Shown here piece by piece: positions 16,536 through 34,880 of a stretch of DNA of 64,000 nucleotides. This DNA comes from Desulfovibrio mangrovi (GTDB lineage Bacteria; Desulfobacterota; Desulfovibrionia; Desulfovibrionales; Desulfovibrionaceae): contig NZ_CP104208.1 of assembly GCF_026230175.1 (NCBI RefSeq), positions 3,348,001 through 3,412,000 on the forward strand. The letters are read 5' to 3'. Under the pieces are notes generated by a model, which was given only the letters and a program-made list of their open reading frames with translations, ran no database searches and was not told the origin of the DNA. Each line of letters opens with the position of its first letter. The first letter of the stretch is position 1. Both the position numbers and the translations under genes were made by a program.

Positions 16536-18599
16536 CTATGCCGCGGAGATGCTGGCGATGATCTTTTCGCCTGCGGGGGAGTTGAGCACTTCCTTGAGTT
16601 TGGCAATGACCTGCGGTTCGTAATGGCTCTTCAGGCTATCCATGATCTTCAGGGCCTCGGGAACCGGCTTGGCAGGACGGTAGGAACGCGGGCGCACCAG
16701 CGCGCAGAAGGCGTTGGTCAGGCTCAGCACCTTGGCTGCCGCCATGATCTCGCCGTCCTTCAGGCCCTTAGGATAGCCGCTGCCGTCCAGACGTTCGTTC
16801 ATCTGGTAAATGGCTTCCACCACGGGCAGGTCGAAGTCGATGTTCTTGAGTACGTCCCGTGCGTGCTCCACGTGGCGTTCCATCTGGGTCTTCTCTTCCT
16901 CGGTGAGCTGACCGGGCTTGTTCAGGATTTCCTGCGGCACGAACATTTTGCCCACCTGCGAGAGGTTGGCGGCGGCATCCACCGTGGCGAGTTCCTCTTC
17001 GCTCATGCCCAGTGCTTTGGCCACTTCCGCTGAAAGCGCGCAGAGCATGCGGGTGTGTCCGCCAAGGTAGGGGTCGGTGTGTTCAATGGTGCTAACCAGC
17101 GCTTCCACGGTCTGCTTGACCACACGCTTGTTCCGTTCCTGCGCTTCCACGGCTTCGGTCACATCGCGGAACACGGAAACAATGCCGTCGCACTTTTCCG
17201 CATCGCAGAACGGGGCCTTGGAAATCTGTACATGGTACTTGCGCGACTGCAGGAAGATGGTCTCGTTGATGGTGACTGACTGGCCTGAGAAGTGCACCAG
17301 TTCGTCGGATTTCTTCAGGCGGCGCGAGGTTTCAAAGCCGAAGATGGCGGCGTCGTCCAGTCCTACCATTTCATTGACGGGACGCCCCACGGCCTTTGCA
17401 AAGGCGGGGTTCACGTACAGATAGGTGCCGTCCGGCGACTTGAGTGCGATGAAGTCCGTTATGGTGTTGTTGACGGAGTCAAGCAGCAGACGCTGCTCGT
17501 TGATGGTATCCGCCAGCAGCTTGAACTTTTCCGCATCCTGCTTGTTTTCCACGCCGATGAGGAACCACCACAGGCTGCCGATGAGCAGGCCAAACGCCAG
17601 CGTGACCAGCACCGCAATAATGGTGATGGTCTGCGAATAGGTTGTCAGGGCTGCACGCGCCTGGGCGTAGTCGGCCTCCTGCACGATCCACCAGTCGATG
17701 GAGGGCAGCTTGTAGGCGCTGGAATAGGATTGTCCTTCGCCGTCAAGCGATGCGCGGGCCGCAAAGGGAATGTTCTTGGATTCGCCGAGATCCTGCGGCA
17801 GCAGGGAAAGCTTGCGCAGGCCTTCGGGCAGCCATGGGGCGACTTCCTCGAAGGTGTCGCCGGTACGCTGGATGAGGTGTGTGCGCAGGGCGTTGCCTCC
17901 CAGAGGCGACGTGGCGATGAATTCGCTTATCTTGCCGGAAACGATGCGGGAGAGCATGAGTACGGCAACGGGCGAGCCTTTACCCTCTTCGAACTGCGGA
18001 GGATAAATGGGCAGGAACATGTCCAGCAGCAGGCCGTTGCTCCCCATGCGGGCAGGGGCGAAGTGGGGGGCCTTGGCCGCCAGTGTGGCCTTTACGTAGT
18101 CTGCCTGCATCTGGGAGAGCGGCGTTGTAGCCGCATCCGTGGCAATGTAGGTCTGGCCGGATGTGTTGATGATGCGGCCGGATACGAATCCCGCGTAGCT
18201 GGCAAATTCCGAAAGCAGGCTGCGCATCATGGGCAGCTGCTGGGCCAGCAAGGCGCTGTCGTCGTCCTTGCCCGTGGGGGTGAGCATGGGGGCAAGGTCG
18301 CTGCCCAGTGCGTTCACCTCTGAGGCAAAAAGCCGGAACATGTCTGCATTGATGAGCCTGTCGCCCTGTTCCGCAAGGCTGGCAAGCCACGTTTCCACCA
18401 CTTCGGAACGGCTGTGCGAAAGCAGTTCCTGCTGGCGTGCAAGGGTGGTGACCAGTTCCTTTTCCTTGCTGTTGATGCTGATCATTGAAAGCGTTACGGA
18501 CGCCACAATGGTCATGGCGAGAAGACATGCGCCGAAGAGGATTATCTTTCCTCTCTTGGCGTTGCCGGTCGCGTGTGCTGGTGATTTGGATTCTGCCAT
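16536..18599 (-). CDS. Membrane Cache-PAS-degenerate HD-GYP protein, putative LapD-equivalent receptor
   Basis: Protein of 687 residues from ATG 18599 (GGAG 6 nt upstream; the TTG two codons earlier is inside that spacing). A membrane segment at 18-40 and another at about 324-349 enclose a 280-residue periplasmic sensor of double-Cache type. In the cytoplasm follow a PAS domain (about 371-484) and an HD-GYP-type domain (about 494-670). The catalytic HD pair is S547-Q548, the later HH pair is M600-N601, and the ADAFDAL aspartates read TNAFCAL. H515, H580-region and DGSGYP (605-610) remain. Phosphodiesterase activity is therefore unlikely; binding of a ligand is still possible. It is the last gene of the exporter-adaptor-LapG operon, the position expected of a receptor that sequesters the protease. 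Confidence 0.85.
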   Translation of the reverse strand: MAESKSPAHATGNAKRGKIILFGACLLAMTIVASVTLSMISINSKEKELVTTLARQQELLSHSRSEVVETWLASLAEQGDRLINADMFRLFASEVNALGSDLAPMLTPTGKDDDSALLAQQLPMMRSLLSEFASYAGFVSGRIINTSGQTYIATDAATTPLSQMQADYVKATLAAKAPHFAPARMGSNGLLLDMFLPIYPPQFEEGKGSPVAVLMLSRIVSGKISEFIATSPLGGNALRTHLIQRTGDTFEEVAPWLPEGLRKLSLLPQDLGESKNIPFAARASLDGEGQSYSSAYKLPSIDWWIVQEADYAQARAALTTYSQTITIIAVLVTLAFGLLIGSLWWFLIGVENKQDAEKFKLLADTINEQRLLLDSVNNTITDFIALKSPDGTYLYVNPAFAKAVGRPVNEMVGLDDAAIFGFETSRRLKKSDELVHFSGQSVTINETIFLQSRKYHVQISKAPFCDAEKCDGIVSVFRDVTEAVEAQERNKRVVKQTVEALVSTIEHTDPYLGGHTRMLCALSAEVAKALGMSEEELATVDAAANLSQVGKMFVPQEILNKPGQLTEEEKTQMERHVEHARDVLKNIDFDLPVVEAIYQMNERLDGSGYPKGLKDGEIMAAAKVLSLTNAFCALVRPRSYRPAKPVPEALKIMDSLKSHYEPQVIAKLKEVLNSPAGEKIIASISAA

Positions 18600-18654: not shown

Positions 18655-19491
18655 TCATTTCACCGGGACATGTGCCCAGCGGTTGAATTCATTGACGGAA
18701 TACTGGGGGAGATAGTGGCTGTATCTGTCATGGGAGAGGACAAGGTCTGTCTGGTTGTCCAGCACCCAGGCGGTGCCCTCTGCGTAGACCACGAGAACCG
18801 CATGCCCGATGCCTCTGATGCGGTCCTTCAGGGCGACGATTCTCAGGTCCTCCGCCGGAACGCCCAGCTCCCTGAGGGCGTAATACTTGGTGATGGAGTA
18901 ATCCTCGCAGTCCCCGGATTTTAGCGCGAACTCGGCGGGTGTGGCCCAGTAGTCCGACTGTCCCCATACTTCCTGATCAAGCCGGTACGGGTATTTGTTG
19001 AAGTGGGCGTTGAGCTTCTTCAGCTTTTCCATCAACGGTTCGTCCTTGATGCTGTTGCGGAACGCTTCCCACGAAGCTTTTGCGTTGTTCTTGCCAGAGG
19101 CGGGCAGAACCGCGCTCAGCTTGTTTTTTCCCGCCTTCATGGCCTGAATGATTCTGTTCCACTGCTGGAGGGATTTAAGCGGTCCTTTGAACTCCATCGT
19201 GTTGAACAGGCGTACCTTCCCGTCTGGCGATGCAGGAGCAGGCTTGGCTGCCGGAGTCCCTGAAAGCATTTGCCGGAATGCGGAAGGCTTCTGCTGAGCC
19301 GGGGCAGCCTTGCTGCCAGCCAGCATTTTCGCCGCCATTGAGCTTCCTTCCTGAGCGTGGGCGTGCCAGAGCCTGCCTGTCGGTGCCAGAATAATGGCCG
19401 GAATAATGGCCACGGTCAGGCAGAGGCAGACAAGGCGCACAAGCGGCAGCAGGTGCGCAGAGGTCTGGCGTAGGCGCACGCGTTTGATCAA
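18655..19491 (-). CDS. lapG: LapG-type periplasmic transglutaminase-like cysteine protease
   Basis: Protein of 278 residues. A hydrophobic segment (14-36) acts as export signal or anchor. The C-terminal half is the bacterial transglutaminase-like cysteine protease domain with C195 in SGDCEDYS, H230 in GIGHAVLVV and D245 in VLDNQTD, the catalytic triad order and spacing of LapG. LapG cleaves giant adhesins after an N-terminal retention domain, releasing them from the cell surface. The start is a TTG immediately after the HlyD stop; no better start is visible, and a GTG four codons later is possible. Residues 50-90 are Ala/Pro/Lys-rich linker. The adhesin with a TAAG site is encoded nearby. Confidence 0.88.
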   Translation of the reverse strand: MIKRVRLRQTSAHLLPLVRLVCLCLTVAIIPAIILAPTGRLWHAHAQEGSSMAAKMLAGSKAAPAQQKPSAFRQMLSGTPAAKPAPASPDGKVRLFNTMEFKGPLKSLQQWNRIIQAMKAGKNKLSAVLPASGKNNAKASWEAFRNSIKDEPLMEKLKKLNAHFNKYPYRLDQEVWGQSDYWATPAEFALKSGDCEDYSITKYYALRELGVPAEDLRIVALKDRIRGIGHAVLVVYAEGTAWVLDNQTDLVLSHDRYSHYLPQYSVNEFNRWAHVPVK

Positions 19492-19492
19492 A

Positions 19493-20815
19493 TCATCGTT
19501 CTCGCAGGGCGTTCTGTTTGGCCTTCAGAATGGGTTTGAGCATGTAATCCAGCACGGACTTCTTGCCGGTAAGAATATCCACGCTTGCCGTCATGCCGGG
19601 GATGATCGGGAGTTTGTCGCCCCGATAGACGATGGTATTCGTTTTGGTCCGCAGTTTGACAAGATAGAACGTCTCGCCCTTTCTGTCTTCAATTGTATCG
19701 GCACTGATCTGCTCCACGGTGGCTTCGAGTCCGCCGTAGATGGAGAAGTCGTAGGCCGTGATCTTGACCATGGCCCGCTGGCCGGGGTGCAGAAAGGCGA
19801 TGTCCGCAGGGCGGATGCGCGCTTCAATGAGCAGTGTGTCGTCAAGCGGCACCAGCTCCAGAATGGTCTCGCCGGGCCGTATGACCCCGCCGATGGTGTT
19901 GTGGTTGATGCGTTTGATGGTGCCGCGCATGGGGGCGCGGATATCCGTACGGGTCACGCGGTCTTCACCGGCGGAAAGGGATTCGTTCAGCGAGCGCAGT
20001 TCGGCCCTGCGTTTGTTGATCTCTTCCTGGGCCTGGTTGTGGAACTCGGCCCTGCGCTGTTCAAGGCGCGCCTTGGCTTCTTCTGCAGCTCGTGAAGCTC
20101 TGGGAATGCCAAGCGAGAGGGAGTCTATGTCTCCCTGCAGCCGCAGCAGGCTCTCTTCCAGCTGCAGGTAGTCCACGCGGGGGTATACGTTCTTTTCCAT
20201 CAGCGGACGGGCGATGTCCCGTCGTTCGGCGGCGATCTTGTGGCTTTGTATCAGCTGTTTGCGGCGGCTGATCATTTCCTCCACTTCCTGCTGCTTCTGG
20301 AAACGCTGGGCGTCCAGTACGCGCATTTCCGCCTCAAGCTGTTCCCTGCGTGTATGGAACATGCTCATCTGGTCGCGTACGATGGTTGGAGCCTTCTCCT
20401 GCATTTCCGCGGTATAAACCGGTTCTCTGTCTTCTGCTTCCGCTTCGAGGCGGATGATGGCGGCCTCGTGTTCCATGATCTTGCTGGCGGCGTCGCGGAA
20501 CAGGCTGCGTGCCTGCTCGTTGTCAATGCGGACAAGCACTTCGTCCTTTTCCACCACCTGGCCTTCGCGCACCAGTACTTCGCGTAAAATGCCGCCTTCA
20601 AGGTTCTGCATTTCCTGCAGGCGTTGGGAGGGGATGACGGAACCCATTCCGCGGGTCACCTCGTCCAGAATGGCAAAGTGCGCCCATACGCCGAAGACGG
20701 CAAAGGCCACGACAATGGCGACGGAAAGCAGATAGGCATAGGGGTGCCCCCTGTGGCGCAGGGCGGCATCCACTTCGCTCATGAATTCGATGTCTTCTCT
20801 ACGGTACTTGCTCAT
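19493..20815 (-). CDS. Type I secretion membrane fusion protein, HlyD family
   Basis: Protein of 440 residues. A short cytoplasmic N terminus is followed by one membrane helix (about 27-50). The first half of a lipoyl-like domain follows (GGILREVLVREGQVVEKDEVLVRID), then about 180 residues of helical coiled coil. The second lipoyl half and a beta-barrel end with the HlyD signature region (IPGMTASVDILTGKKSVLDYMLKPI). This is the periplasmic adaptor between the ABC exporter and a TolC-like channel. It starts 13 bp after the ABC exporter gene and is followed at once by the LapG-type gene. Confidence 0.95.
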   Translation of the reverse strand: MSKYRREDIEFMSEVDAALRHRGHPYAYLLSVAIVVAFAVFGVWAHFAILDEVTRGMGSVIPSQRLQEMQNLEGGILREVLVREGQVVEKDEVLVRIDNEQARSLFRDAASKIMEHEAAIIRLEAEAEDREPVYTAEMQEKAPTIVRDQMSMFHTRREQLEAEMRVLDAQRFQKQQEVEEMISRRKQLIQSHKIAAERRDIARPLMEKNVYPRVDYLQLEESLLRLQGDIDSLSLGIPRASRAAEEAKARLEQRRAEFHNQAQEEINKRRAELRSLNESLSAGEDRVTRTDIRAPMRGTIKRINHNTIGGVIRPGETILELVPLDDTLLIEARIRPADIAFLHPGQRAMVKITAYDFSIYGGLEATVEQISADTIEDRKGETFYLVKLRTKTNTIVYRGDKLPIIPGMTASVDILTGKKSVLDYMLKPILKAKQNALRER

Positions 20816-20828
20816 GGTCGTTTCCTCA

Positions 20829-23237
20829 TTACATCGTGCGAGGCTTTGCCGCCGAACGCAGCTGTTCGTTCTTCAGCGCGTTCAGCACCGCCGCCTTGGG
20901 GCCGTCTGCAATGATGCGGCCGTTGTCCATGACCACAAGCCGGTCAACCAGATCGATCATGCTCATGCGGTGGGTGATGAGCAGCAGGGTCTTGTCTTTG
21001 ATGATTGTGGCCAGCCGCTGCTTGAAGAGCATTTCCGCGCTGTTGTCCATGTTGGAGCTGGGTTCGTCGAGAATGAGGATTTCCGGATCACTCAGCAGGG
21101 CGCGGGCCAAGGCCACGGATTGCCGCTGCCCGCCTGAGAGTGACATGCCTCTTTCACCCACGGGCATGCCGAATCCGGCAGGATGCGCCTGCACGAAGTC
21201 TGTGACCCCGGCAATGGATGCTGCGCGCAGGATGGCATTGTCGTCCGCATTAGGATTGCTGATGGCGATGTTTTCCCGCACGTTGCCGTAGAACAGGTAG
21301 TTGTCCTGCGAAACATAACCAGCGCGGCTGCGCAGTTCGGCCACGTCCATCTGCCGGATGTCGACTCCGCCGAGTTTTACGGCTCCTTCGGTGGGTTGGT
21401 AGAGGCCCACGGCAAGTTTGCCCAGCGTGCTTTTGCCGGAGCCCATCTTGCCGATGATGCCGATCTTTTCACCGGGCCGGAACAGGAAGTTGATGCCTTC
21501 CAGCGCAAGACGTTCGTTTCCGGGGTAGCGGAAGCTCAGTTCTTCTGCGGCCAGCGAGGGGGTAAGCCCCACATAGCAGAGGGCGGCACTGTCTTCGGCC
21601 CGCTCTGTGGGCAGGGTCATGAGCATATCAAGTGACTTGAGAGCCATGCGGGACTGCTGCAGGCGCGACAGCATGGCCGCCACCTGACTGAGGGGGGCCA
21701 TGGCGCGTCCCGCAAGGATGTTGCAGGCGATGAGGCCGCCCATGGTCAGTTCTCCGGCCCCTATGAGGTGCACGCCCCAGACGATGATGATCATGCTCAC
21801 CAGCTGGGTGGCCAGCATGGACATGGTGATGGAGAAGTTGGCAAGGCTTTTCGTGTGGCTGTTCGAGCGGGCGCTCATGCCCACCACGCGTTCCCACGTC
21901 CGCTGCATCCGGCCTTCCGCCTGACTTGTCTTGACGGTTTCTATGCCGTTGAGAATTTCGATGAGCAGGGCGTTTTTCTGCGCACCTTCCTTGTAACCGG
22001 ATTCAATGGCCCGTTGCAGGGGGAACTGCAGCAGCCAGCCGATGATGATTACCAGCGGCACGGCCAAGGCGGGTACGAAGAGCATGGGGCCGCCGATGAA
22101 GCCCACCAGCGCGATGAATACGAAAAGGAAGGGCAGGTCGATGATGGCGAGCAGGGTGGTGGAGCTGAAAAACTCGCGCAACGACTCGAATTCGCGCAGG
22201 TTGTTGGCGAGGGTGCCCGTGGAATCGGGTTTGTAGTCCATCCTGATGCTCATGAGGTGCTGCATGAGCCGCGAGGCAAGAATGATGTCGGCATTCTTGC
22301 CTGCCACATCGCAGAAATAGCTGCGCAGGTTGCGCAGGACGAAGTCGAACATGTAGGCGATGCCGATGCCGATGGCCAGCACCCACAGAGTGTCCAGAGC
22401 GTTGTTGGGCACCACGCGGTCATAGACGTTCATGAAGAAGAGCGGCGAAACAATGGCTAGCAGGTTGATGACAAGGCTGGCCATGCCCACGTGCTTGTAT
22501 ATGGGCAGGTAGTGCCAGATGGTTCCCCAGAACCAGCGTTTGGCCTTGAGCAGTTTTATCTCGCTGGCACGTTTGTCCAGTCTGCCTTCAATCTGTCCGA
22601 AAATGGCATAGCCTGCATATTCTTCCTCAAGCTTGTAGCGGAGTATTTCAATGGGCGCGTTGCCGGTTTCGGGGAAGACTATTTCCGCGGTCTTGTCGTC
22701 CAGCGAGGTGAGGACGCAGGCCCCTTTAGTCTTGAGCAGCAAAATGCACGGCAAGGTGAGGGTTGAAATGCTGTCCAGCGTCTGCCGGTGGACGGCCCTT
22801 ACATTCATGCCGGCTTGCATGGCGGCCCGAAGACAGGCCGAGGTGTGCGAGGGGCCTCCGTGTTCCGGCAGCCCTGCCTTGAGTTTTTCGATGGATATGG
22901 TTCTTCCGTTCAGTGAGAACAGAACTACGAGGCAACGAAGCAGCGGAGAGTCATAGTCAACGTCTGCAGGCGCAGGCGCAATGGTGCGCCAGGGAACATT
23001 GGCGCCGGCCTGCAGGCCGTCAGTTGGTTCTTCTGCAGACTTTGGCGAGGGTATGGATTCATCACTGCCGGCACTGTAGTCCGGCTGGGAGGATGTTGGG
23101 GTTCCTTTATCTGTTTGCGGTCTGGAGCCGGATATGGGTTGGCCGGATTGTTGAATGGGTTTGACCGGAGTTTTGCCGTTTGCGGCGGTCTGCCCGCCTG
23201 CGGCTGAACTCTCCGGTTTCGAACTCGGTTCTGGCAT
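20829..23237 (-). CDS. Type I secretion ABC transporter (permease-ATPase with C39-like domain)
   Basis: Protein of 802 residues. The first 110 residues are a Pro/Ser/Gln-rich, probably disordered extension. Residues about 115-240 form a C39-like domain without the catalytic Cys-Gly signature, so it is a non-cleaving docking domain as in RTX exporters. A six-helix ABC transmembrane domain follows, then the nucleotide-binding domain with Walker A GKMGSGKST, signature LSGGQRQSVALARAL, Walker B ILILDEPSSNMD and ITHR switch. It exports unfolded substrates through HlyD and TolC partners. It is the first gene of the leftward operon, divergent from the adhesin, which is the obvious substrate. Confidence 0.95.
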   Translation of the reverse strand: MPEPSSKPESSAAGGQTAANGKTPVKPIQQSGQPISGSRPQTDKGTPTSSQPDYSAGSDESIPSPKSAEEPTDGLQAGANVPWRTIAPAPADVDYDSPLLRCLVVLFSLNGRTISIEKLKAGLPEHGGPSHTSACLRAAMQAGMNVRAVHRQTLDSISTLTLPCILLLKTKGACVLTSLDDKTAEIVFPETGNAPIEILRYKLEEEYAGYAIFGQIEGRLDKRASEIKLLKAKRWFWGTIWHYLPIYKHVGMASLVINLLAIVSPLFFMNVYDRVVPNNALDTLWVLAIGIGIAYMFDFVLRNLRSYFCDVAGKNADIILASRLMQHLMSIRMDYKPDSTGTLANNLREFESLREFFSSTTLLAIIDLPFLFVFIALVGFIGGPMLFVPALAVPLVIIIGWLLQFPLQRAIESGYKEGAQKNALLIEILNGIETVKTSQAEGRMQRTWERVVGMSARSNSHTKSLANFSITMSMLATQLVSMIIIVWGVHLIGAGELTMGGLIACNILAGRAMAPLSQVAAMLSRLQQSRMALKSLDMLMTLPTERAEDSAALCYVGLTPSLAAEELSFRYPGNERLALEGINFLFRPGEKIGIIGKMGSGKSTLGKLAVGLYQPTEGAVKLGGVDIRQMDVAELRSRAGYVSQDNYLFYGNVRENIAISNPNADDNAILRAASIAGVTDFVQAHPAGFGMPVGERGMSLSGGQRQSVALARALLSDPEILILDEPSSNMDNSAEMLFKQRLATIIKDKTLLLITHRMSMIDLVDRLVVMDNGRIIADGPKAAVLNALKNEQLRSAAKPRTM

Positions 23238-23822
23238 GGAAAAATCCCCCCTGAAGACCGGTCACAACAGTGCGGTCATACGACAGTGCAGTAGATGTGG
23301 CGTCTGTTGCATCCGTTTGCATTCAGGGCGCAGTGCTCCGGTGAGGAAACAAGGCCCTTGTCGTGTCGCTTCGGTGTTTTTGGTCTTTGTTTGTATCGTA
23401 CAAGCAAAAGCCGGTAGGCGATGCTTTGTTTTGGAGCAACTATCACGGTTTTATGTGAATATTGCAACCTATATGCAGTGGGCTGGAAGGACCTGGCTGG
23501 CGTATTTGGACGCAGACTGTAACCTGGCGATGCGTTGCTAGAATAGATTTTCTTTTTTTATAAAAATATAACGCATTTTTGCAAATACTGCATTATTGCA
23601 TAATCAGTTGATATGATTCTGCTGTTTACATCCATGGCGGAGGGGCGGTCTGAAAGGTCTGACCAATGTGGCATTCAGTATATATTGTGCTTGTCTCTGC
23701 CTTCTGTTATGGGCGTAAAGAATTATCTGAAAACCACTTTTAACGAATGACGCAAACGGAATCGGGAACCGTAGGCAGCATGTCGTTTCTTAATCTACAT
23801 GCCCAGGAATAAAGGGGGGGCC
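23238..23822. other. Divergent regulatory region between exporter operon and adhesin
   Basis: This 585-bp stretch has no gene. It is strikingly AT-rich around 23545-23620, including TTTTTTTATAAAAATATAAC and an imperfect inverted repeat TGCAAAT-actgc-ATTATTGCA (23580-23600). Promoters for both the adhesin and the secretion operon should lie here. No sigma-54 consensus was found and no -35/-10 pair is good enough to name. Confidence 0.5.
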
Positions 23823-26800
23823 ATGGCGGATTTAACTCGTACTGTCGTTTTGACTGCACCGAACGCTGGCGAACATGTTGCGCTGCGCGTTGAACCTACT
23901 GCATTGTTGCAGGTAGAGTTCGATATCAACGCAACGCAGGTTACCCGCGTTGACAACGATCTGGTGTTCTCGTTCGAGAACGGTTCCAAACTCACGTTAA
24001 TAGATTTCATCGACCTCATCGCCAATGGTCAGGCGCCGGAGTTTGCCTTCAGCGACGGTGCCGTTGTGGCAGGTGACGTGCTTATCGCCTCTCTGGGGGA
24101 TATTCCCATAGAGACGGCTGCCGGTGCTGCCGCTGTGGGCGGTGGCGGTTCTACTTATGTATATGATCCGGGCTCATTGTATGACGGCTTTGATCCTCTG
24201 AGAATGCAGAGCGGTGCTGGCGCCAGCGCATCCGGCTCTGCAGTGGAGGGAGGAGCAGGCGGTGCAGACGGTGCAGGCGGTGCAGACGGTGCCCCTGTTC
24301 TGGTGAATCACGCCCCCGAGGTTGCCGGGACGCTCTCGTTCAACATGGACGAGGACGGGACTATCACCATTACGGCCGCCCAGTTGCTGGCCAACGCCTC
24401 CGACATTGATGGTGACGTGCTGAGTGTGGTGAACCTCTCTGCCGATAATGGAACATTGACCCCCAACGGTGCGGGGGCGTGGACCTTCACGCCGGATAAG
24501 GATTTCAACGGCACGTTGAACCTGACCTTCGACGTGAGCGACGGCGACCTGACTACGCCTTCCGGTGCGACGGTGGTTGTGGCTCCGGTGAACGATGCTC
24601 CTGTGGCTCAGGCCGCTACGGACTCGGCCACTGAAGACGGTGCCGTCATCACCGGCCAGTTGCATGCCACGGATGTCGATACCGGGGACGAGCTGACTTA
24701 CAGTGTTGTCGGTGAGTCTCCTGATGGCTTCAGCCTGAACGCAGACGGCAGCTATTCCTTTGATCCAAAACACCTCACGTACAACGGCCTTGCCGAGGGC
24801 GAGAAGCACGATGTTGTCGTGCAGTATCAGGTGTCCGACGGCAATGGAGGCACGGCCACCGAAACGCTGACCATTACTGTTACCGGCACCAACGATGCGC
24901 CGACTCTGAGCTTTGGTCCTTCCGGAGGTTCTTATCTGATCACTAACGGCAGCTTTGAAGTCGTTAGCTCCACTCTAGATGCAGGAACGTGGACGGAGGT
25001 TCCAGAGGATAGCGTAGCGGGTTGGGATTCGCATTCGAGCGACGGAATCTGGATATGGCAAAGTGGGGTTCAGGGTGTCCCGTCAACGAATGGGGATCTC
25101 CACGCCGAGCTTTATGAATCCGATATCTCTCAGCAGGTTACTTTGTCGGACAAGGGTTCCTATATGCTGCAGTTTGATGCTCGCAGCGGCGAAGAAGGAG
25201 GTGCCATTAACGTCCTTTGGAAAGGAAATGTTGTGGCGACCATTACTCCGACCGAAGATTGGCAGACTTATTCGGTTGAGGTGGATGGGCAGTGGGATGG
25301 CGATGGCAATGGCATATTCGACCTCTCCTTCAGCCCGGTAGGCGAATATGGTAACTATGCGCCTCTGCTGGATAACGTGGTTATGTTCAAGGCCGTAACC
25401 ATCGATGAAAATTCAAAAGATATCCCTGTGGTCACAGCTCTCGGACAGGATGTGGACGGAGATGCCCTGACCTATTCAATCGTGGATGGCGATGAGAATA
25501 ATTGGTTTACGATCAACCCTACTACCGGCGAGATTACAGTAGCCCAGGGTGCCGAGATAGATGCTGAAAAGCTCACTACAGTCGAGCTCACAGTCGCGGT
25601 AACCGACGGTCATGAAACCGTGACGCGGACCTTGACGGTCAACATCGCGGATCTCAACGACAATGCGCCTGAGTTCTCGAAAGTGAACACCAGCGGCATT
25701 AACGAGTTCTCGGAAGCCGGAACAGAGGTTGCCTCGTTTACGTTGACAGATGCCGACGTGACCGCTGCGCACAATGATGCGCACTTCAGTCTTACCGGAG
25801 CCACGTTGAAGACTGAGTATGGCAATGCGGACATTCCTCTGAGCGCTAATGAGGTAGAGCTGTACTTCAATGTCTCCGAGCCTAAGGATGGGGGAAAATA
25901 TGAAATTACTCTTACCGCCTCGGGACAAGAGTATTTCGACACCCTCGAGCTCGGCGATGTGACCGTGACCCTTCACGGCTTGGGTTCGGATGGCCTGCAT
26001 GACACGAAACAGGACTTCACCTTTGCCGTGGATAACGTGAATGAGGCGCCGACTCTGAGCTTTGGTTCTTCCGAGGGGTTGAATCTGGTCGTTAATGGAA
26101 GCTTCGAGAACCTTGGTGGAGTTCAGGTTGGTAACTGGTCCCCTGTTTCTGAAAACAAGGTGGACGGTTGGTATTCGAATGTAGGCAATAAGATAGAAAT
26201 TTGGAATTCCGGTTTCTTGGGCGTCGACTCATCCGATGGCGACCATCACGCCGAGCTTGATTACGCTGGTTTGATTGATGATATTTCCCAGAAAATTGCT
26301 GGGTTGGATGGCGGCTCTTATGTACTTCAGTTTGATGCCCGTAGCCGCTCCTTTACGTCCGAGGGGGTTGAAAAGGCCACGGAAGCCATTGAAGTTCTCT
26401 GGAATGGAGAGGTAAAGGCTGTCATCTACGCAACCAATGGTTGGCAGACCTATTCGGTTGTGGTCGAAGGCGCAGGGGAGGGCGAACTTTCCTTCCGGGA
26501 GCTCGCAACCGGAAACGATTCCCTGGGCCCCTTGCTGGATAACGTGTCCATGTTCAAGGTTGCGCCTGTTGAAGGCAACGCCGTAACCATTGACGAGAAT
26601 TCGGCAACTGGAACTGTCGTGACCATGGCTCTCGGGCAGGATGTCGACGGGGATGCTCTGACCTATTCGTTCATGAAAGATGGTTCCCGCGTGTGGGAGC
26701 TTGATGGTTTTGCTATCAACAAAACTACCGGCGAAATCACTGTGGCCGATGGCTCCATGCTGGACGCTGAAAAGCTCTCAAAAGTCGATCTTTCGGTCGC

Positions 26801-29800
26801 GGTAACCGACGGTCTTGAAACCGTGACGAAGACCTTGACGGTCAACATCGCGGACCTCAATGACAACAAGCCTGTGTTCTCGGGCGTGGACGTGGCCAGC
26901 GGTATTACCGAGTTCTCGGAAGCAGGAACAGAGGTTGCCTCGTTTACGTTGACAGATGCCGACGTGACCGCTGCGCATAACACAGTGAGCTTCAGTCTTG
27001 CCGGAGCCACGTTGAACACTGCCTTTGACGGCGGAACAATTACTCTGAATGCGACGGACGTTAACAAGTACTTCAAGGTGGACCTCCTCGGAGGTGCTGG
27101 AAGCATTAAGCTTACCTCTGATGGTCAAGCCTATTTCGACGCCCTTGAACTCGGCGACGTGACCGTGACCCTTCGCGGCATAGGTTCGGATGGTTCGCCT
27201 CAAACCACAGCACAGGACTTCTCCTTTGTCGTGGAAGACGTGAACGAGAGACCGACTGTTGATAAGGGAATCGACGTACAGAGTGTGAATGAGGACAGCG
27301 AGTTCTCATTCACTATTCCGGATGATGCCTTTGCGGATGTCGATGCCGGCGATACGTTGCAGTACACGGCCACACTGGAAGACGGCTCTGATCTGCCAGA
27401 CTGGCTGGAGTTTGATCCGATAAATCGTACGTTCAAGGGCACGCCCGAAAACGACGATGTAGGCGTTATTTCGGTGAAGGTAACGGCCACAGACAGCGGC
27501 GCGCTCTCCGAGTCCACTACTTTCCAGCTTACGGTGGTTAACACCAACGATGCGCCGACTCTGAACTTTGGTTCTTCCGAGGGCTCGACTCAGATCGCTA
27601 ACGGTGGTTTCGATGACTTCGGGCAAGGGTGGGAGCGGGCAGACGGTAATAAGGTAACAAACTTATGGCGTGTGTGGGGTGACACAAATACATTTGTCTC
27701 GATTGATTCGGACAATGGTAACGATGTTATCCAAAGCGTACATTTGGAAGAAAACGGTTCTTATGTGCTGCGGTTTGATGCCTGGGACTATTTCAATAAG
27801 GGCGGAGTCATAACAGTCCTCTGGAACAATGAGGTTGTTGCAGAAATTGCTCCAACTCCATCTTGGCAGACCTATTCGGTTCTGGTCGAAGGTGCGGTAG
27901 GAGACGGCCAGCTCTCTTTCCGTACCAGCCCTGATGGTATGGTAGGCCCCTTCCTGGATAATGTGTCCATGTTCAAGGTTGCGCCTGTTGTAGACAGCGC
28001 CGTAACCATTGACGAGAATTCGGCAGCTGGAACTGTCGTGACCATGGCTCTCGGGCAGGATGTCGACGGGGATGCTCTGACCTATTCGTTCATGAAAGAT
28101 GGTTCCCGCGTGTGGGAGCTTGATGGTTTTGCTATCAACAAAACTACCGGCGAAATCACTGTGGCCGATGGCTCCATGCTGGACGCTGAAAAGCTCTCAA
28201 AAGTCGATCTTTCGGTCGCGGTAACCGACGGTCTTGAAACCGTGACGAAGACCTTGACGGTCAACATCGCGGACCTCAATGACAACAAGCCTGTGTTCTT
28301 GGACGTGAGCGGGGCCCAAGGCATTACCGAGTTCTCGGAAGCCGGAACAGCGGTTGCCTCGTTTACGTTGACAGATGCCGACGTGACCGCTGCGCATAAC
28401 ACTGTGAGCTTCAGTCTTGCCGGAGCCACGTTGAGCACTGTCTTTGACGGCGGAACAATTACTCTGAATGCGACGGACGTTAACAAGTACTTCAAGGTGG
28501 ACCTCCTCGGAGGTGCTGGAAGCATTAAGCTTACCTCTGATGGTCAAGCCTATTTCAACACCCTTGAACTCGGCGACGTGACCGTGACCCTTCACGGCAT
28601 AGGTTCGGATGGTTCGCCTCAAACCACAGCACAGGACTTCTCCTTTGTCGTGAAGGATGTGAATGAAGCGCCCAGTCTCTCGCTTGTTGACAGTGTTTCC
28701 ATTTCTGAATCCAGCGAGGTCGGCGACCTTGTGGCCACTGCAGCGGGTTCAGACGTGGATGCAGGCTCAACGCTTTCCTATTGGTTCCTTGACGGCAATA
28801 ATGCAAGAACAGACTCTCTGAACGGTTTTGCCATTGATACGGCGAGCGGCGAGATCACGCTGGTTGACCCGAGCCAGATCAATTACGAATCTACCCCCAA
28901 GCACGCCGTCGCGTTACAGGTAGTTTCCTATGACGGTACGGGCAGTATCGAAGGACTTCAGTCCGACCCCAAGACGTTGACCGTCAACATTACGGATGCG
29001 AACGAAGCGCCGATTGTTTCGTTCAAGAACTCCATTATTAACGGCAGTTTTGAAGAGGGCGTGGATTTCGGTAGTTCAAATTGGACGAAGGCCGAGTCTC
29101 TGCCCGGCTGGCAAAACGAGGCCAATACGTGGATGGAGCCCCACAAGGGCAGCCACATGGGCGTAGGTACGACCCATGGCGAAAACTATATGGACCTTGG
29201 CGGCTCTCCCGGCAACGCTCATATTTCGCAAGTTATCAACGGGCTGGATTCCGGCGAAACCTACACGCTGCAGTTCTCCCTGTTTGACAAGGCATTCGTA
29301 GCCAACGCTGGCGAAAGCTCCGGAAGGCTTGAAGTCATATGGAATGGCGATGTGGTGGCAACGCTGGAAGGGGATCAGAGATCCTGGTCTGAGATTTCAC
29401 TTGATCTCGTGGCGACCGGTGATGCTGACAAACTTGAATTCAGGGAAATCGGAACGTCAGTCAGAGACGATAACCATGGCATCGCACTGGATAACATTCG
29501 TCTGTTCAGCATTTCTTCATCCGCAGAGAGAACTGTGGCTGAGAATGCTGCCAATGGCACCCTCGTGGCCACTGCGCTTGGGGCGGATGTGGATGCAAAC
29601 GACACGCTTTCCTACTGGTTCATCGACGATGGCAAACGGGTAAGCACTCTGGATGGCTTTGCCATAGATACGGCGACCGGCGAAATCAGGGTGGCTGATT
29701 CTAACCTGATTGATTATGAGTCTACTCCCGGTCATGCCATCAATCTGGATGTGGTTTCCTATGACGGTAAGCTTGAGTCTGCGCCCAAGACGCTGACAGT

Positions 29801-32800
29801 CAATATCTCCGACGTGCCGGAAATGATTACCGTGGATGAGGGCCATTCCGTCACGTTGACCGTAGCCGATCTTTCGGTTTCGAGTGAGTCGCTGATTGGC
29901 AATGTGCTTCGTCTTGATGGTCTGCCTGCCGGTGGCGAAGTGCTGTTAAATGGGGTGGCGCTTAAGAGCGGCCAAACCTTCACGTATGAGCAGCTCACGC
30001 AGGGGCGCGTTAGCTATGCCCATGCAGGCGGCGAAGATACCAGCGATGTTTTGCGCTTCGACATTCTGGATAAAACCGGCACGAAGCTGCTGGTAGATCG
30101 TGCGAGCGTTAACGTAACTGTTAATCCTATAAACGATATTCCGGTTCTGGACCTTGATTCAACCGGTTCCGTTGAGGTTGTCTATCAGTCTCAGTCTGCT
30201 GGATATAACAACGTGCTTGGCGTCTACACCTACAACGAAGCAGGTGAGCCGGTGTTCCAGCAAGTGCTTCTGGACCATACGCGTAACGCCGATGGTACGG
30301 TGGATGAGAGCCTGCTGAATACTGTGATTGGCAACTTTGATGCACGTGAGAATTTGCACTTCTTCATCCTGCCAAATGGCGGCGGCTCTTGGGCAACCAA
30401 AGACGCAAGCGACCAGATCAGGTTCGAGAAGGTGGGTAATGCGTGGAAGCTGTGTGTCGGCGAAGACGGCGACAAGCTTACTCTCTCTGCCTACTTCAGC
30501 GATCAGCAGCTTAATGCTGACGGTTTGAACCATTTCCGCATTGTGAATAATGCGAACGGCTCCGTTACGTTGAATATTGAAGACCTCTGGAACGGCGGCG
30601 ATCGCGATTACCACGACATCGACGCTGCAATCAGACTTACCAATCCTGTCGATGGCGATTTCGGCTTCACCAACACCTTTGTGGACGGTGGAGAAGGTGT
30701 GGCCATTGTGGGTGACGTGCGCATTTCTGATGCGGACAACACCCATATGAAGCAGGCCGTAGTCACGCTCAAGGGTGCCGTTGATGGCGACATGCTCTAT
30801 ATTGATGGCGCATCGTCTTCCGATGTTGAAGGCGTGCTGCCTTCCGGCATTACCTGGCGCTTGACTGAGGGCGGGACTGTCATCACCCTGAGCGGCAATG
30901 CCTTGTCTGATCAGTATGAGGTGGCGCTCCAGCAGATTCGCTACAAGAACACCACCAATCTTGCCTCTGGTAACACTACCCGCGAAATAGACGTGACAGT
31001 GACGGATGCGGATAACGGATCCAGTAATACTGCCACGGCGACCATTGCCGTTGTGGGCGAGAACGATGTGGTCTTTACGACCAGTCATCAGGACGTACAA
31101 AATCCGGATTACACCAATAGCTTCGCAACACGGTTTGCGCAGAATGAGATGCGAGTGGTGAATGGGCATGAGGTTGTTGTTGAAAATGCCTCTTCCATTA
31201 CGGTTGACGAGTGGAACGGTGTGAAGAGTGTGCTGGCAGAATCGCGCGGTGATGCTGACGTGACCATCAACAACTTTGTGCGCGCAGATGTAAGACTTGG
31301 CGTTGGCACTACCGATGATGGTTCCGTGGGCAGCCATGTGACGATCAACGATGCCAAGCGCGGTACCGTGACCACCGGTAACGATGATGATCACATCGTT
31401 GTGAATGCGAAGACTAACGACGCCCCCGGTGCAGGCTGGTCTGATACGTTTGTAATCAAGACAAATGATGGCAATGACGTTCTGGATCTGAAGGGTGCTG
31501 GCGGCAGCACGGTATTTGATGTGGAGGCCGGTGCCGGTAGCGATACAGTTAAAATCTCCGGCGCAGTGTACGGCTTGGATCTTGACGGCGGCGACGGCGT
31601 CGATACCCTTGATTTTAGTGAGTATAGCAAGGGTGTGACCGTCAACCTCGCTGCGGAGACAGGCGTTTCCGGAAACCACCCGGGTGGCGATAGCATCCGC
31701 GGGTTCGAGAACCTGACCGGCAGCGCTCATGACGACATCCTTGCCGGTGACGCTAAAGGTAACGTCATCGACGGCGGAGCCGGTAGAGATATCATCTGGG
31801 GTGGTGACGGCGACGACGCCCTCAGCGGTGGTTCCGGCAACGACGACCTTCTTTCCGGTACCGGCAACAACCTGCTTGAGGGCGGTGTCGGCAACGACCG
31901 TCTTTACAGCTATGATGGCGCCAATGTGCTTAACGGCGGCGAAGGTACGGACGAAGCGTCCTATATCTATGCCTCGGATGGCGTGACTGTGGACCTTGCC
32001 AACGGCTTTGCCGAAAAGGGCAATGGTGTGCATGACTCCCTGAACAGCATTGAAAAGGTTCAGGGCAGCCATTTCAACGACTCTCTTGTCGGCGACGGCA
32101 ACGATAATCAGCTTCAGGGCGAAGCTGGGAATGATACCCTGATCGGCGGAGCTGGCAACGACTCGCTTTACGGCGGTTCCGGCGACGACCTCATCAAGGG
32201 CGGAGCTGGCGCTGACGAGCTTATCGGCGGCGACGGTATCGATACCCTGAGCTATGCAGATTCCGATGCTGGCGTGAACGTCAACCTCGGTGCGGGAACC
32301 GCATCCGGTGGTCATGCCGAAGGAGATCGCATCTCCGGTTTCGAGAACCTGACCGGCAGCGCACATGATGACACTCTTATCGGCGATAGTGGCGGGAACG
32401 TCATCAAGGGCGGAGACGGCGCAGACCTCATATACGGCGACTTTACTCCCGATTTTGCAGGTGTGAACCTCCTTCTCAACGCCGATTTTGAGCAGCCTGA
32501 CAGCGGAGCTGGTTCCGATGGGGGCTTGAATAACGTTAGTTGGGGTACGTTCCAGAACTATGGTGCCTGGACTGCCACAACCGGCCTTATCGAAATTCAG
32601 CAAGGTGCCCACAGCGGTACGCCTGCGACCGATCATAACAACCGCGTGCTGGAGCTGGACTCCTATGCCAACAGTGTTGTTTCGCAGGCCGTGGACTTCT
32701 CTTCTCTCAAAGGAGTAGAGAGTGTGGTTCTGGAGTTGAGCTTCGATTATGCCGGTCGCGCGAAGGGCGCCCTTGTAGCGGAGAATACCAGCGGTCTTGA

Positions 32801-34880
32801 GGTTTGGCTCGGTGATGAACGCGTAGCCAAATTTGACAGCATTCCGCAGGAGTGGCTGAACACGGGAACGATCAAGATAGCCCTTGATCCCAGTCAGCTG
32901 CCCGAGGACGGAAAGCTCGATCTGCAGTTCAAGGGGACTAACACGAGCGACTCTTATGGTGCGCTTGTGGACAACGTTTCCCTGAAGGTGGCCGCAGTGG
33001 GCGGTGCTGACGAACTCTTCGGCGGTGCCGGCGACGACACCATTCATGGTGGAGCCGGTAACGACACCATTCATGGCGGGGCCGATAATGACATCATTTA
33101 TGGCGATGCCGGCAACGACCACATTGATGGTGGCGATTCGCTTGATACGGTCGTCTTCTCCGGAGACCGGGGTGATTACCATATTCACTGGAATGAAGCG
33201 ACACAGTCCTATACCGTAACAGATACCCGCGAGGGTAGTATGGATGGTGAGGACGTTGTCACTAATGTGGAATACTTCCAGTTCAATGATGGCACCGTCG
33301 CAGCCGAGAACCTGATCGGCCTGCAGCTGACGATGAAGTCAGTGAGCGCGACTCCCGTCGTTTCAAGCATCCCCGGTAACCCGGTAGTCCATCTTGATGC
33401 CCAGAATGAGAAAAGTCTTAAATTGAATAATGGGGACAATGTTGAGGTCTGGCACGATCTGGAGCATGGAAGTGGCGATTCTGCAGACAATTTCCATAGC
33501 AAGAACGTCGACAATAGACCTGAGTTTAGGACTGACGTTGACGTATTGAATGGCCATGGTGGGATATACTTCAAGGGTAGCAATGATGTGATGCTGACTA
33601 ATTACGGCGGACAAGGAACATCTCTTGGCGCGAAAGCGTCCGTCGGCTCAAGAAGTCTTGCCATGGTTTTCCAGACCGGCGACAGCGTCGACAACCTACA
33701 GATGTTGTATGATCAGGGCGGCGACTCTGCTGGTGTTTCCCATAAGAACAATCCTGACCAAGATGGCATGAATCTCTTTATTCAGAATGGTCGGTTGTAT
33801 GCCTCTGTATTCGATCAGGACGGTAATGCCCTCGGAACCAGTGAGCTGAGCCAGCATGTGATCGACTTGGGGCAGGTTGCCAGTGATACGGCCTACTCGG
33901 TTGTAATATCGTATGATGCCGATTTGAAAACCTTCTCCGGATGGGGTAACGGCGTTCAGTCTGTGTCGGACTTGGGCAATGCGTTTTCCCTCGAAAAGCA
34001 TGATGGCGTCAGTGTTGGCGGTGTGGATGGTATGACTTATAACGGTGCAGGCGAGTTGGTTTACGATGGTAACGCCCTCTTCAATGGCACTATCGGTGAA
34101 GTAGTCATCTGGAATAACGCCCTCACTGGCGAACAGGCCGGACAGGCCAATGACTACATGCGTTCGCACTGGGTCGGCGAGACTGGTACCCAGATTGCTG
34201 CCGGTACCGTCATGGGCGACTTCTCCGGCTTTACTCAGGGCTGCGAGCATACTCCGACCCTGACGCTGGATCCGGCTGTAGGCGACAACCAGTACTTCAG
34301 CCTTGATGAGCACAACCAGTTGGTACGTTCGAATGTACCGGGGCTGGAAGGTCATGACACGGCCCGCGTTTCCGTGGTTCTGCATGACGGTGCTTCCGAG
34401 ACGACCCATACCTTCGTTATCGGCATGGACGATGATGCAAACTCTGTCATTGCCCACAACGTTGCCTATCATGAGGTCGTCGCCAATGATCACGGCATAC
34501 TCAATGGCCTTGACGGTGTGGCGGATATCTTCACTATCGGCGAGCTGATGCAGAACCTGCTTGTCAACGACTTCAGTATGACGGATCACGATGTGCTGGA
34601 TCTGAGCGGTATCAATGTAACGCATGATAGCAAGACGCTGAACCTGCATGACCTGTTGACGGAGACTGGTCATGGCTATGATACTTTGAACCAGTATCTG
34701 GCTGTGGAGGATACCGGCAACGACCTGAAGATAAATGTCTTTGCAGGAGGCGATGCAACAACCGGCGGTCAAGCCACGCAGACTATCACTTTGGTAGAGG
34801 CAGCTGTGGGTGTTGAGATTCGTCATGAAGATATCCTGAATGACCTGATCATGAACGGAAAGGCTGTGACGGACTTGTAG
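23823..34880 (+). CDS. Giant RTX adhesin with LapA-like retention module and type I secretion signal
   Basis: Protein of 3685 residues. The start is ATG 23823 after an A/G-rich site; an upstream in-frame ATG (23799) lacks one. Residues 1-97 form a LapA-like retention region, ending at TAAG (98-101), the type of site cut by LapG. Cadherin/VCBS-like repeats follow (NDAP junctions at about 255 and 360), alternating with modules that begin NGSFE and end LDNV (near 24.9, 26.1, 27.6, 29.0 and 32.5 kb). A DUF4114-like segment (GDRDYHD) lies near 30.6 kb. RTX nonapeptides of GGxGxD type fill about 31.4-32.4 and 33.0-33.1 kb. A LamG-like region (33.4-34.2 kb) and a T1SS C-terminal signal end the protein. 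The composition is acidic, Gly/Asp-rich and almost cysteine-free. It is expected to be secreted, held at the surface and mediate attachment or biofilm formation. Confidence 0.93.
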   Translation: MADLTRTVVLTAPNAGEHVALRVEPTALLQVEFDINATQVTRVDNDLVFSFENGSKLTLIDFIDLIANGQAPEFAFSDGAVVAGDVLIASLGDIPIETAAGAAAVGGGGSTYVYDPGSLYDGFDPLRMQSGAGASASGSAVEGGAGGADGAGGADGAPVLVNHAPEVAGTLSFNMDEDGTITITAAQLLANASDIDGDVLSVVNLSADNGTLTPNGAGAWTFTPDKDFNGTLNLTFDVSDGDLTTPSGATVVVAPVNDAPVAQAATDSATEDGAVITGQLHATDVDTGDELTYSVVGESPDGFSLNADGSYSFDPKHLTYNGLAEGEKHDVVVQYQVSDGNGGTATETLTITVTGTNDAPTLSFGPSGGSYLITNGSFEVVSSTLDAGTWTEVPEDSVAGWDSHSSDGIWIWQSGVQGVPSTNGDLHAELYESDISQQVTLSDKGSYMLQFDARSGEEGGAINVLWKGNVVATITPTEDWQTYSVEVDGQWDGDGNGIFDLSFSPVGEYGNYAPLLDNVVMFKAVTIDENSKDIPVVTALGQDVDGDALTYSIVDGDENNWFTINPTTGEITVAQGAEIDAEKLTTVELTVAVTDGHETVTRTLTVNIADLNDNAPEFSKVNTSGINEFSEAGTEVASFTLTDADVTAAHNDAHFSLTGATLKTEYGNADIPLSANEVELYFNVSEPKDGGKYEITLTASGQEYFDTLELGDVTVTLHGLGSDGLHDTKQDFTFAVDNVNEAPTLSFGSSEGLNLVVNGSFENLGGVQVGNWSPVSENKVDGWYSNVGNKIEIWNSGFLGVDSSDGDHHAELDYAGLIDDISQKIAGLDGGSYVLQFDARSRSFTSEGVEKATEAIEVLWNGEVKAVIYATNGWQTYSVVVEGAGEGELSFRELATGNDSLGPLLDNVSMFKVAPVEGNAVTIDENSATGTVVTMALGQDVDGDALTYSFMKDGSRVWELDGFAINKTTGEITVADGSMLDAEKLSKVDLSVAVTDGLETVTKTLTVNIADLNDNKPVFSGVDVASGITEFSEAGTEVASFTLTDADVTAAHNTVSFSLAGATLNTAFDGGTITLNATDVNKYFKVDLLGGAGSIKLTSDGQAYFDALELGDVTVTLRGIGSDGSPQTTAQDFSFVVEDVNERPTVDKGIDVQSVNEDSEFSFTIPDDAFADVDAGDTLQYTATLEDGSDLPDWLEFDPINRTFKGTPENDDVGVISVKVTATDSGALSESTTFQLTVVNTNDAPTLNFGSSEGSTQIANGGFDDFGQGWERADGNKVTNLWRVWGDTNTFVSIDSDNGNDVIQSVHLEENGSYVLRFDAWDYFNKGGVITVLWNNEVVAEIAPTPSWQTYSVLVEGAVGDGQLSFRTSPDGMVGPFLDNVSMFKVAPVVDSAVTIDENSAAGTVVTMALGQDVDGDALTYSFMKDGSRVWELDGFAINKTTGEITVADGSMLDAEKLSKVDLSVAVTDGLETVTKTLTVNIADLNDNKPVFLDVSGAQGITEFSEAGTAVASFTLTDADVTAAHNTVSFSLAGATLSTVFDGGTITLNATDVNKYFKVDLLGGAGSIKLTSDGQAYFNTLELGDVTVTLHGIGSDGSPQTTAQDFSFVVKDVNEAPSLSLVDSVSISESSEVGDLVATAAGSDVDAGSTLSYWFLDGNNARTDSLNGFAIDTASGEITLVDPSQINYESTPKHAVALQVVSYDGTGSIEGLQSDPKTLTVNITDANEAPIVSFKNSIINGSFEEGVDFGSSNWTKAESLPGWQNEANTWMEPHKGSHMGVGTTHGENYMDLGGSPGNAHISQVINGLDSGETYTLQFSLFDKAFVANAGESSGRLEVIWNGDVVATLEGDQRSWSEISLDLVATGDADKLEFREIGTSVRDDNHGIALDNIRLFSISSSAERTVAENAANGTLVATALGADVDANDTLSYWFIDDGKRVSTLDGFAIDTATGEIRVADSNLIDYESTPGHAINLDVVSYDGKLESAPKTLTVNISDVPEMITVDEGHSVTLTVADLSVSSESLIGNVLRLDGLPAGGEVLLNGVALKSGQTFTYEQLTQGRVSYAHAGGEDTSDVLRFDILDKTGTKLLVDRASVNVTVNPINDIPVLDLDSTGSVEVVYQSQSAGYNNVLGVYTYNEAGEPVFQQVLLDHTRNADGTVDESLLNTVIGNFDARENLHFFILPNGGGSWATKDASDQIRFEKVGNAWKLCVGEDGDKLTLSAYFSDQQLNADGLNHFRIVNNANGSVTLNIEDLWNGGDRDYHDIDAAIRLTNPVDGDFGFTNTFVDGGEGVAIVGDVRISDADNTHMKQAVVTLKGAVDGDMLYIDGASSSDVEGVLPSGITWRLTEGGTVITLSGNALSDQYEVALQQIRYKNTTNLASGNTTREIDVTVTDADNGSSNTATATIAVVGENDVVFTTSHQDVQNPDYTNSFATRFAQNEMRVVNGHEVVVENASSITVDEWNGVKSVLAESRGDADVTINNFVRADVRLGVGTTDDGSVGSHVTINDAKRGTVTTGNDDDHIVVNAKTNDAPGAGWSDTFVIKTNDGNDVLDLKGAGGSTVFDVEAGAGSDTVKISGAVYGLDLDGGDGVDTLDFSEYSKGVTVNLAAETGVSGNHPGGDSIRGFENLTGSAHDDILAGDAKGNVIDGGAGRDIIWGGDGDDALSGGSGNDDLLSGTGNNLLEGGVGNDRLYSYDGANVLNGGEGTDEASYIYASDGVTVDLANGFAEKGNGVHDSLNSIEKVQGSHFNDSLVGDGNDNQLQGEAGNDTLIGGAGNDSLYGGSGDDLIKGGAGADELIGGDGIDTLSYADSDAGVNVNLGAGTASGGHAEGDRISGFENLTGSAHDDTLIGDSGGNVIKGGDGADLIYGDFTPDFAGVNLLLNADFEQPDSGAGSDGGLNNVSWGTFQNYGAWTATTGLIEIQQGAHSGTPATDHNNRVLELDSYANSVVSQAVDFSSLKGVESVVLELSFDYAGRAKGALVAENTSGLEVWLGDERVAKFDSIPQEWLNTGTIKIALDPSQLPEDGKLDLQFKGTNTSDSYGALVDNVSLKVAAVGGADELFGGAGDDTIHGGAGNDTIHGGADNDIIYGDAGNDHIDGGDSLDTVVFSGDRGDYHIHWNEATQSYTVTDTREGSMDGEDVVTNVEYFQFNDGTVAAENLIGLQLTMKSVSATPVVSSIPGNPVVHLDAQNEKSLKLNNGDNVEVWHDLEHGSGDSADNFHSKNVDNRPEFRTDVDVLNGHGGIYFKGSNDVMLTNYGGQGTSLGAKASVGSRSLAMVFQTGDSVDNLQMLYDQGGDSAGVSHKNNPDQDGMNLFIQNGRLYASVFDQDGNALGTSELSQHVIDLGQVASDTAYSVVISYDADLKTFSGWGNGVQSVSDLGNAFSLEKHDGVSVGGVDGMTYNGAGELVYDGNALFNGTIGEVVIWNNALTGEQAGQANDYMRSHWVGETGTQIAAGTVMGDFSGFTQGCEHTPTLTLDPAVGDNQYFSLDEHNQLVRSNVPGLEGHDTARVSVVLHDGASETTHTFVIGMDDDANSVIAHNVAYHEVVANDHGILNGLDGVADIFTIGELMQNLLVNDFSMTDHDVLDLSGINVTHDSKTLNLHDLLTETGHGYDTLNQYLAVEDTGNDLKINVFAGGDATTGGQATQTITLVEAAVGVEIRHEDILNDLIMNGKAVTDL
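26534..27238 (+). repeat. Adhesin internal direct repeat, copy A
   Basis: A 705-bp unit starting at CTGGATAACGTGTCC, covering the end of one jelly-roll-like module and a whole cadherin-like module. It recurs at an offset of 1419 bp (473 codons) without indels; I count about 25 mismatches. The central 300 bp differ by one base. Confidence 0.9.
27953..28657 (+). repeat. Adhesin internal direct repeat, copy B
   Basis: Second copy of the 705-bp unit. The mismatches cluster near the module junction around 28303-28326. A third, clearly diverged relative of the same module lies at about 25385-26041. Confidence 0.9.

Follow-up and report, generated by a model that had tools for sequence, protein, structure and literature searches.

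DvhD, also called BfsD (DVU1020), of Desulfovibrio vulgaris is the closest described relative of the receptor studied here. It carries SQ in place of the HD pair and MN in place of the HH pair of HD-GYP phosphodiesterases (Font et al., PMC13090378, Nat Commun, April 2026). It binds c-di-GMP with an effective Kd of 99 nM, shifts its conformation upon binding, and shows no c-di-GMP hydrolysis, which no added ion restores (PMC13090378). When reconstituted in P. fluorescens, DvhD controls the LapG-type protease DvhG (Karbelkar 2024, via PMC13090378 and PMC11784015). D. piger, D. desulfuricans and D. fairfieldensis are further carriers (PMC13090378). The genes DVU1017-DVU1020 encode, in order, the ABC exporter, HlyD, the protease and the receptor (PMC11784015).

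We analysed a stretch of 64,000 nucleotides from Desulfovibrio mangrovi (the window), in which the following features surround a receptor gene of this kind:

16536..18599, minus strand: DvhD-type receptor of 687 aa with dCache, PAS and degenerate HD-GYP domains (profile and structure-chain matches)
17670..18443, minus strand: periplasmic dCache, residues 53-310 (9rc2 chain, E 2.4e-57)
17142..17456, minus strand: PAS domain, residues about 382-486 (PAS_4, E 2e-11)
16539..17162, minus strand: degenerate HD-GYP domain, residues 480-687 (HD_5, 9.3e-42; 9rbz, E 1.2e-61)
16956..16961, minus strand: S547-Q548 instead of the HD pair (alignment)
16797..16802, minus strand: M600-N601 instead of HH (alignment)
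16770..16787, minus strand: DGSGYP, residues 605-610, intact; Y609 aligns with DvhD Y621
18655..19491, minus strand: LapG/DvhG-type BTLCP protease (Peptidase_C93, 2e-20; 4u65, E 7.8e-21)
19493..20815, minus strand: HlyD adaptor of a type 1 secretion system (HlyD_3, 3.6e-19)
20829..23237, minus strand: ABC exporter with a C39-like N-terminus (ABC_tran, 5.7e-29)
23799..34880, plus strand: giant cadherin/RTX adhesin of 3,693 aa, divergent
24114..24125, plus strand: TAAG, adhesin residues 106-109, predicted LapG cleavage motif
35017..36357, plus strand: TolC-type outer-membrane factor (OEP, E 1.6e-61)

The receptor frame runs from an ATG at 18599 to 16536 and encodes 687 aa plus a stop; the frame given to the Pfam scan was two residues longer, and its dCache_1 match (4.4e-5) falls below the curated cut-off. 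Minus-strand genes follow the order ABC, HlyD, LapG and receptor, matching DVU1017-DVU1020, and the domain matches confirm the claim of the initial annotation that the last gene of this exporter-adaptor-LapG operon encodes a Cache-PAS-HD protein. Read by eye, the neighbouring protease carries GDCEDY (the Cys with flanking Asp and Glu), GHAVLVV and VLDNQ; the Cys-His-Asp triad and the calcium Asp/Glu beside the Cys are present, the residues that matter being taken from PMC13090378. The TAAG motif alone is weak evidence because [TAP]AAG turns up in 826 of 10000 shuffled versions of the first 150 adhesin residues, and we reject the idea that it could by itself prove a cleavage site. The genome encodes another adhesin N-terminus (L235, G000:C1:276234-276575; 35% identity), which has NIETAAG and is a likely second LapG substrate. 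About 22 kb from the receptor, at 40920-41684 on the minus strand, lies a stand-alone HD-GYP protein that keeps HDIGK and HHERYDGKGYP.

The closest solved relatives of the receptor are 9rc0 (E 3.5e-93), 9rbz (2.4e-60) and 9rc2 (2.4e-57), labelled at the PDB just as 'HD domain/sensory box protein'. They are fragments of DvhD, since 12 of 12 residue numbers in PMC13090378 fit the chain. By sequence comparison the window gene is the ortholog of DvhD. The suspicion that a D. vulgaris ortholog had already been noted was right, DvhD being that protein (PMC13090378). The central proposal, a dead HD-GYP receptor beside LapG in parallel to LapD, is supported and has been reported for DvhD (PMC13090378); because they are known for the ortholog, neither this observation nor its interpretation is new.

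Aligned with PmGH (4mcw) and 5z7c, the window receptor has SQ at HD, MN at HH, and N629, within TNAFC, at the Asp of DVF/DIF. Both HD and HH, metal ligands of active HD-GYP enzymes, are missing, and the retained metal-ligand histidine positions are H515 (the His of GGH) and H576 (the His of RHVEH). The pairs Ser-Gln at 547-548 and Met-Asn at 600-601 had been named exactly, as both frame and alignment show; the later aspartate had correctly been called lost, and DGSGYP (605-610) with one or two histidines (H515, H576) correctly called retained. No intact set of metal ligands emerged from proper alignment, HD, HH and the late Asp all being replaced. Eight positions, which we take to be the PmGH ligands, were compared, including E185, H221, D222, H276, H277 and D305. 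Six of the eight differ (E185 is Tyr, H221 Ser, D222 Gln, H276 Met, H277 Asn and D305 Asn), E185 being Glu in only 3 of 23 intact HD-GYPs. Among PmGH ligands the cited parts of PMC13090378 name HD and HH only.

The receptor family was collected with a profile (A1) made from ten dCache regions, with no HD-GYP residues in it. The profile matches 156 of 297 genomes of the window's order. In a sample of the phylum 12 of 395 genomes match, of which two lie outside that order. One of 85 genomes matches in the order of one outside genome, which is that genome itself, and in the class to which G675 belongs 10 of 289 match, G675 itself among them; G675, with receptor L010, is recorded as an uncultured bacterium of the Rhodospirillales, an order of Alphaproteobacteria. 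This spread outside the window's order may already be recorded in PMC13090378, whose Fig. 9b gives the distribution by class and whose supplements list homologs. We used 150 receptors, one per locus: 140 profile matches that were fetched, nine named loci and the receptor of the window. Search patterns for the nine named loci included the MN motif; the other loci came from the dCache profile. Alignment covered 149 of them, L153 ending at a contig end with no HD domain; L098 (contig end) is scored as a gap after H250, L104 contains masked letters (X), and the D305 comparison uses window residue 629.

None of the 149 aligned members, the window's receptor included, keeps H221, D222 or H276; the loss of HD, which was to be checked among orthologs, is shared by all of them. 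All 24 HD-GYP frames in 23 non-family loci of six genomes, a control set taken without a motif filter, keep the three residues; a 24th non-family locus, L210, does not. (The other control set, of 23 frames, was picked by a motif filter.) The contrast of 0 of 149 with 24 of 24 makes a chance loss of HD and HH untenable. D305 is still Asp in 11 of the 149, every one in genomes of the G675 class. In a tree from which the eight motif columns had been removed, the dead family takes one side of a single branch against intact HD-GYPs (63 versus 25 rows; SH-aLRT 99; bootstrap 100, called rough by the program). With the dead family on one side of one branch, these sequences fit a single loss in the HD-GYP domain that preceded the spread of the family.

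The receptor might nevertheless be a phosphodiesterase that remains active by means of different metal ligands and reduces c-di-GMP around the adhesin exporter. The two ligand histidine positions and DGSGYP that are left would allow this, but the six changed positions of the eight compared (with E185 itself so seldom Glu in intact enzymes), the absence of H and D of the HD pair from all 149 family members, and the published ortholog, which has SQ and MN and gave no hydrolysis with any added ion (PMC13090378), make it very improbable; on the residues and the published ortholog we rejected it.

For the canonical c-di-GMP site we considered nine residues, the eight contacts in Font et al. plus R653 of their double mutant (PMC13090378). 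Seven are identical to DvhD in the window receptor (Y511, L565, K570, Y609, R638, Y640 and R641), and Leu replaces M646 and E668, the latter credited with base specificity by Font et al. At the bridging site P567 is kept, K520 is Thr and R569 is Glu. Among the 149 family members K520 is Lys in none and Arg in five, R569 is Arg in two, and P567 is Pro in 131; the last position is also Pro in 18 of the 23 intact HD-GYPs of the motif-filtered set. In the set of 78 homologs of Font et al., the bridging site is described as conserved (PMC13090378). We rejected a family-wide conserved bridging site, P567 being common also in intact HD-GYPs and K520 and R569 varying. Because K520 and R569 are changed and E668 is Leu, the window receptor may differ from DvhD in stoichiometry, in cooperativity and in how far it prefers c-di-GMP to 3'3'-cGAMP.

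The window gene has the orthology, the operon, the motif losses and the conserved canonical pocket of a DvhD-type receptor. Very probably it encodes an inner-membrane c-di-GMP sensor of this type that does not hydrolyse its ligand and controls LapG and adhesin release; we infer that it behaves like DvhD towards its own LapG and adhesin. At high c-di-GMP the HD-GYP dimer would bind the nucleotide without hydrolysis, and the PAS stalk would relay the signal across the membrane to dCache in the periplasm; the adjoining LapG-type protease would be restrained and the adhesin would stay anchored. When c-di-GMP falls, LapG would cut the adhesin near TAAG and the cell would detach. An outside ligand acting through dCache, or an input through PAS, could instead be the main signal, with c-di-GMP setting a baseline only. 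This is unlikely in our judgement: ligand sensing is a common role of dCache domains (PMC13090378), and PAS sits in between, but in the crystal of the DvhD dCache the putative site, which may nonetheless take a ligand, had no unmodelled density (PMC13090378).

Upstream and on the same strand, 85 of the 150 receptors have LapG and HlyD, 38 LapG only, 23 HlyD only and four neither. The four with neither include L004 and L159, at contig ends, and L065, so counted by the distance limit although its LapG frame overlaps the receptor. Some of the 38 with LapG only lie at contig ends (e.g. L010, L131) and some have an opposite-strand exporter (L103, L105, L134). Among the order's 297 genomes, 147 carry both receptor and BTLCP protease and 131 carry neither, while nine have the receptor only and ten BTLCP only (Fisher p 1e-59, a value inflated by shared ancestry).

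The window's genome has one BTLCP match. A separate LapD controlling this LapG would have undercut the proposal; searched for elsewhere in the window's genome by the LapD_MoxY_N profile, it was found neither at E 1e-3, where the search's own controls were silent, nor at 0.01, where the search does detect the family in G004 and G015. Matches in G011 (E 0.003) and G016 (E 0.002) are below the family cut-off and were not counted as LapD. G004 and G015, among the ten BTLCP-only genomes, each have a canonical LapD (LapD_MoxY_N, GGDEF, EAL) directly adjoining LapG (L200:4372-6360 and L202:6194-8200). In a quick, midpoint-rooted tree of 48 hand-picked LapGs, these two LapD-linked ones group on a branch of their own (SH-aLRT 99, length 2.2), separate from the other 46. 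The initial annotation had spoken of LapD being replaced: a dead HD-GYP receptor does stand in LapD's place, but the LapG tree, with its two LapD-linked members, lends no support to a recent swap in place. In-place replacement is unproven because LapD-linked and DvhD-linked LapGs are apart, which fits separate cassettes equally. That the DvhD-LapG pair spread as a cassette of its own, separate from a LapD-LapG cassette, has to our mind an even chance of being right; the branching of the G004 and G015 LapGs away from the other 46 speaks for it, tempered by a quick tree with a midpoint root and two LapD-linked sequences, and it is compatible with the DvhD-type sensor as the best explanation of the window gene.

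All but one of the nine receptor-only genomes are from a single genus, g13, and in these eight BTLCP has no match at 1e-5. In four of them (G100, G128, G175, G203) HlyD lies beside the receptor. Dead HD-GYP receptors of g13 beside an exporter adaptor are L079, L081, L082, L083, L237 and L239; upstream of the exporter at L082 and L083 there is a frame made of bacterial Ig-like domains. G171 and G179, g13 genomes that do have LapG, carry both a g13-type receptor and an ordinary LapG-linked receptor. A g13 receptor at an exporter with no detectable LapG would point to an output other than LapG proteolysis. In the class of G675, three genomes (G788, G915, G1012) have a second LapG (L057:549-1223, L060:654-1289 and L061:751-1404). 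Back to back with the second LapG of G915 is L210, another dead PAS-HD-GYP protein but more divergent, in which MN replaces HD, LQ replaces HH and GHP replaces GYP, and the N-terminal end of an L210-like protein lies at the second LapG of G788.

Two or three receptor matches at 1e-10 occur in 31 of the 45 matched genomes of genus g3. In pairs such as L068/L069, L070/L071 and L129/L130, one copy lies beside LapG and the other closes an ABC-HlyD operon without LapG; in some genomes (e.g. G163, G260) the two receptors are a few kilobases apart on opposite strands. A quick, midpoint-rooted tree of 80 of the 150 full-length receptors places the exporter-linked g3 and g27 copies in one clade and the LapG-linked copies in another (SH-aLRT 100 each, joined at 98). 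HlyD beside exporter-linked g3 receptors is long, about 630-890 aa from stop to stop at eight loci (L069:5337-7439, L071:5412-7403 and others) versus 459 in the window.

Both copies were fetched and alignable in 21 genomes, 20 of g3 and G187 of g27, with L145 (G062) counted despite poor alignment. Outside these pairs are several g3 genomes from which one copy only was fetched (e.g. G085, G113, G204, G284), G226, whose LapG-linked copy L153 is incomplete at a contig end, and G171 and G179, whose exporter-linked copy is of g13 type. Two profile matches also occur in G122, G123, G147, G188 and G225, where the second match lies outside the comparison. In DvhD, Tyr621, a phosphate contact, Tyr523 and Lys582 make polar contacts to one c-di-GMP phosphate and ribose (PMC13090378). 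Tyr621 is kept in 21 of 21 exporter-linked copies and missing in 20 of 21 LapG-linked ones, which have Leu, Gln, His, Glu, Ala or a gap. Position 523 is Asn in 19 of 21 LapG-linked copies versus Tyr in all 21 exporter-linked ones, and K582 is Gln in 19 of 21 versus Arg in 21. All 42 copies retain R650 and L577.

Since the 21 two-copy genomes are close kin, a single event with later drift at the site probably accounts for the loss of the pocket in LapG-linked copies. Tyr621 loss is not strictly tied to copy number, and the exceptions speak against a division of labour between two receptors. The tie is broken by four genomes with one receptor found (G056, G137, G185 and G265, with L134, L105, L103 and L236), whose LapG-linked copy also lacks Tyr621, and by G187, with two copies and Tyr621 in both, as likewise in G171 and G179 of another genus. 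The LapG-linked relatives of g14, in the same clade, keep Tyr621 (e.g. L099, L100, L168-L175). As a tentative proposal, which we hold to be rather doubtful, c-di-GMP input in g3 could enter through the exporter-linked receptor, with the LapG-linked copy answering another signal, acting as a partner of the first or binding weakly, and g13 receptors could feed an output other than LapG.

We found no description of the two-receptor split in the literature searched, and the main text of PMC13090378 contains none of the terms 'paralog', 'second copy' and 'Alphaproteobacteria'. The family-wide pattern added here comprises the fit to a one-event loss, the exporter-linked branch without LapG and the eroded pocket of LapG-linked g3 copies. 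Both the signal entering this class of receptors and its effect can be tested directly in the genomes with two receptors and at the receptors that lack LapG.

The window receptor shares with DvhD the dCache-PAS-HD-GYP order, SQ, MN, the position after ABC, HlyD and the BTLCP protease, and seven of nine canonical pocket residues; it differs in Leu at M646 and E668, Thr at K520 and Glu at R569. PmGH (4mcw/4mdz) and other intact HD-GYP phosphodiesterases have the same HD-GYP fold, by sequence match, and the GYP motif, but keep the HD and HH lost here. Like LapD of the P. fluorescens type, the receptor adjoins LapG and is made from a dead phosphodiesterase domain, and by analogy it would signal from the inside out; LapD, however, has LapD_MoxY_N and GGDEF-EAL, none of which was matched by Pfam in the window receptor. 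The same difference separates it from the LapD-LapG pairs of G004 and G015, where LapG also lies beside its receptor and that receptor is LapD_MoxY_N-GGDEF-EAL. The locus extends to another genus the picture in which EAL and HD-GYP, two unrelated folds, each became a dead c-di-GMP receptor controlling LapG.
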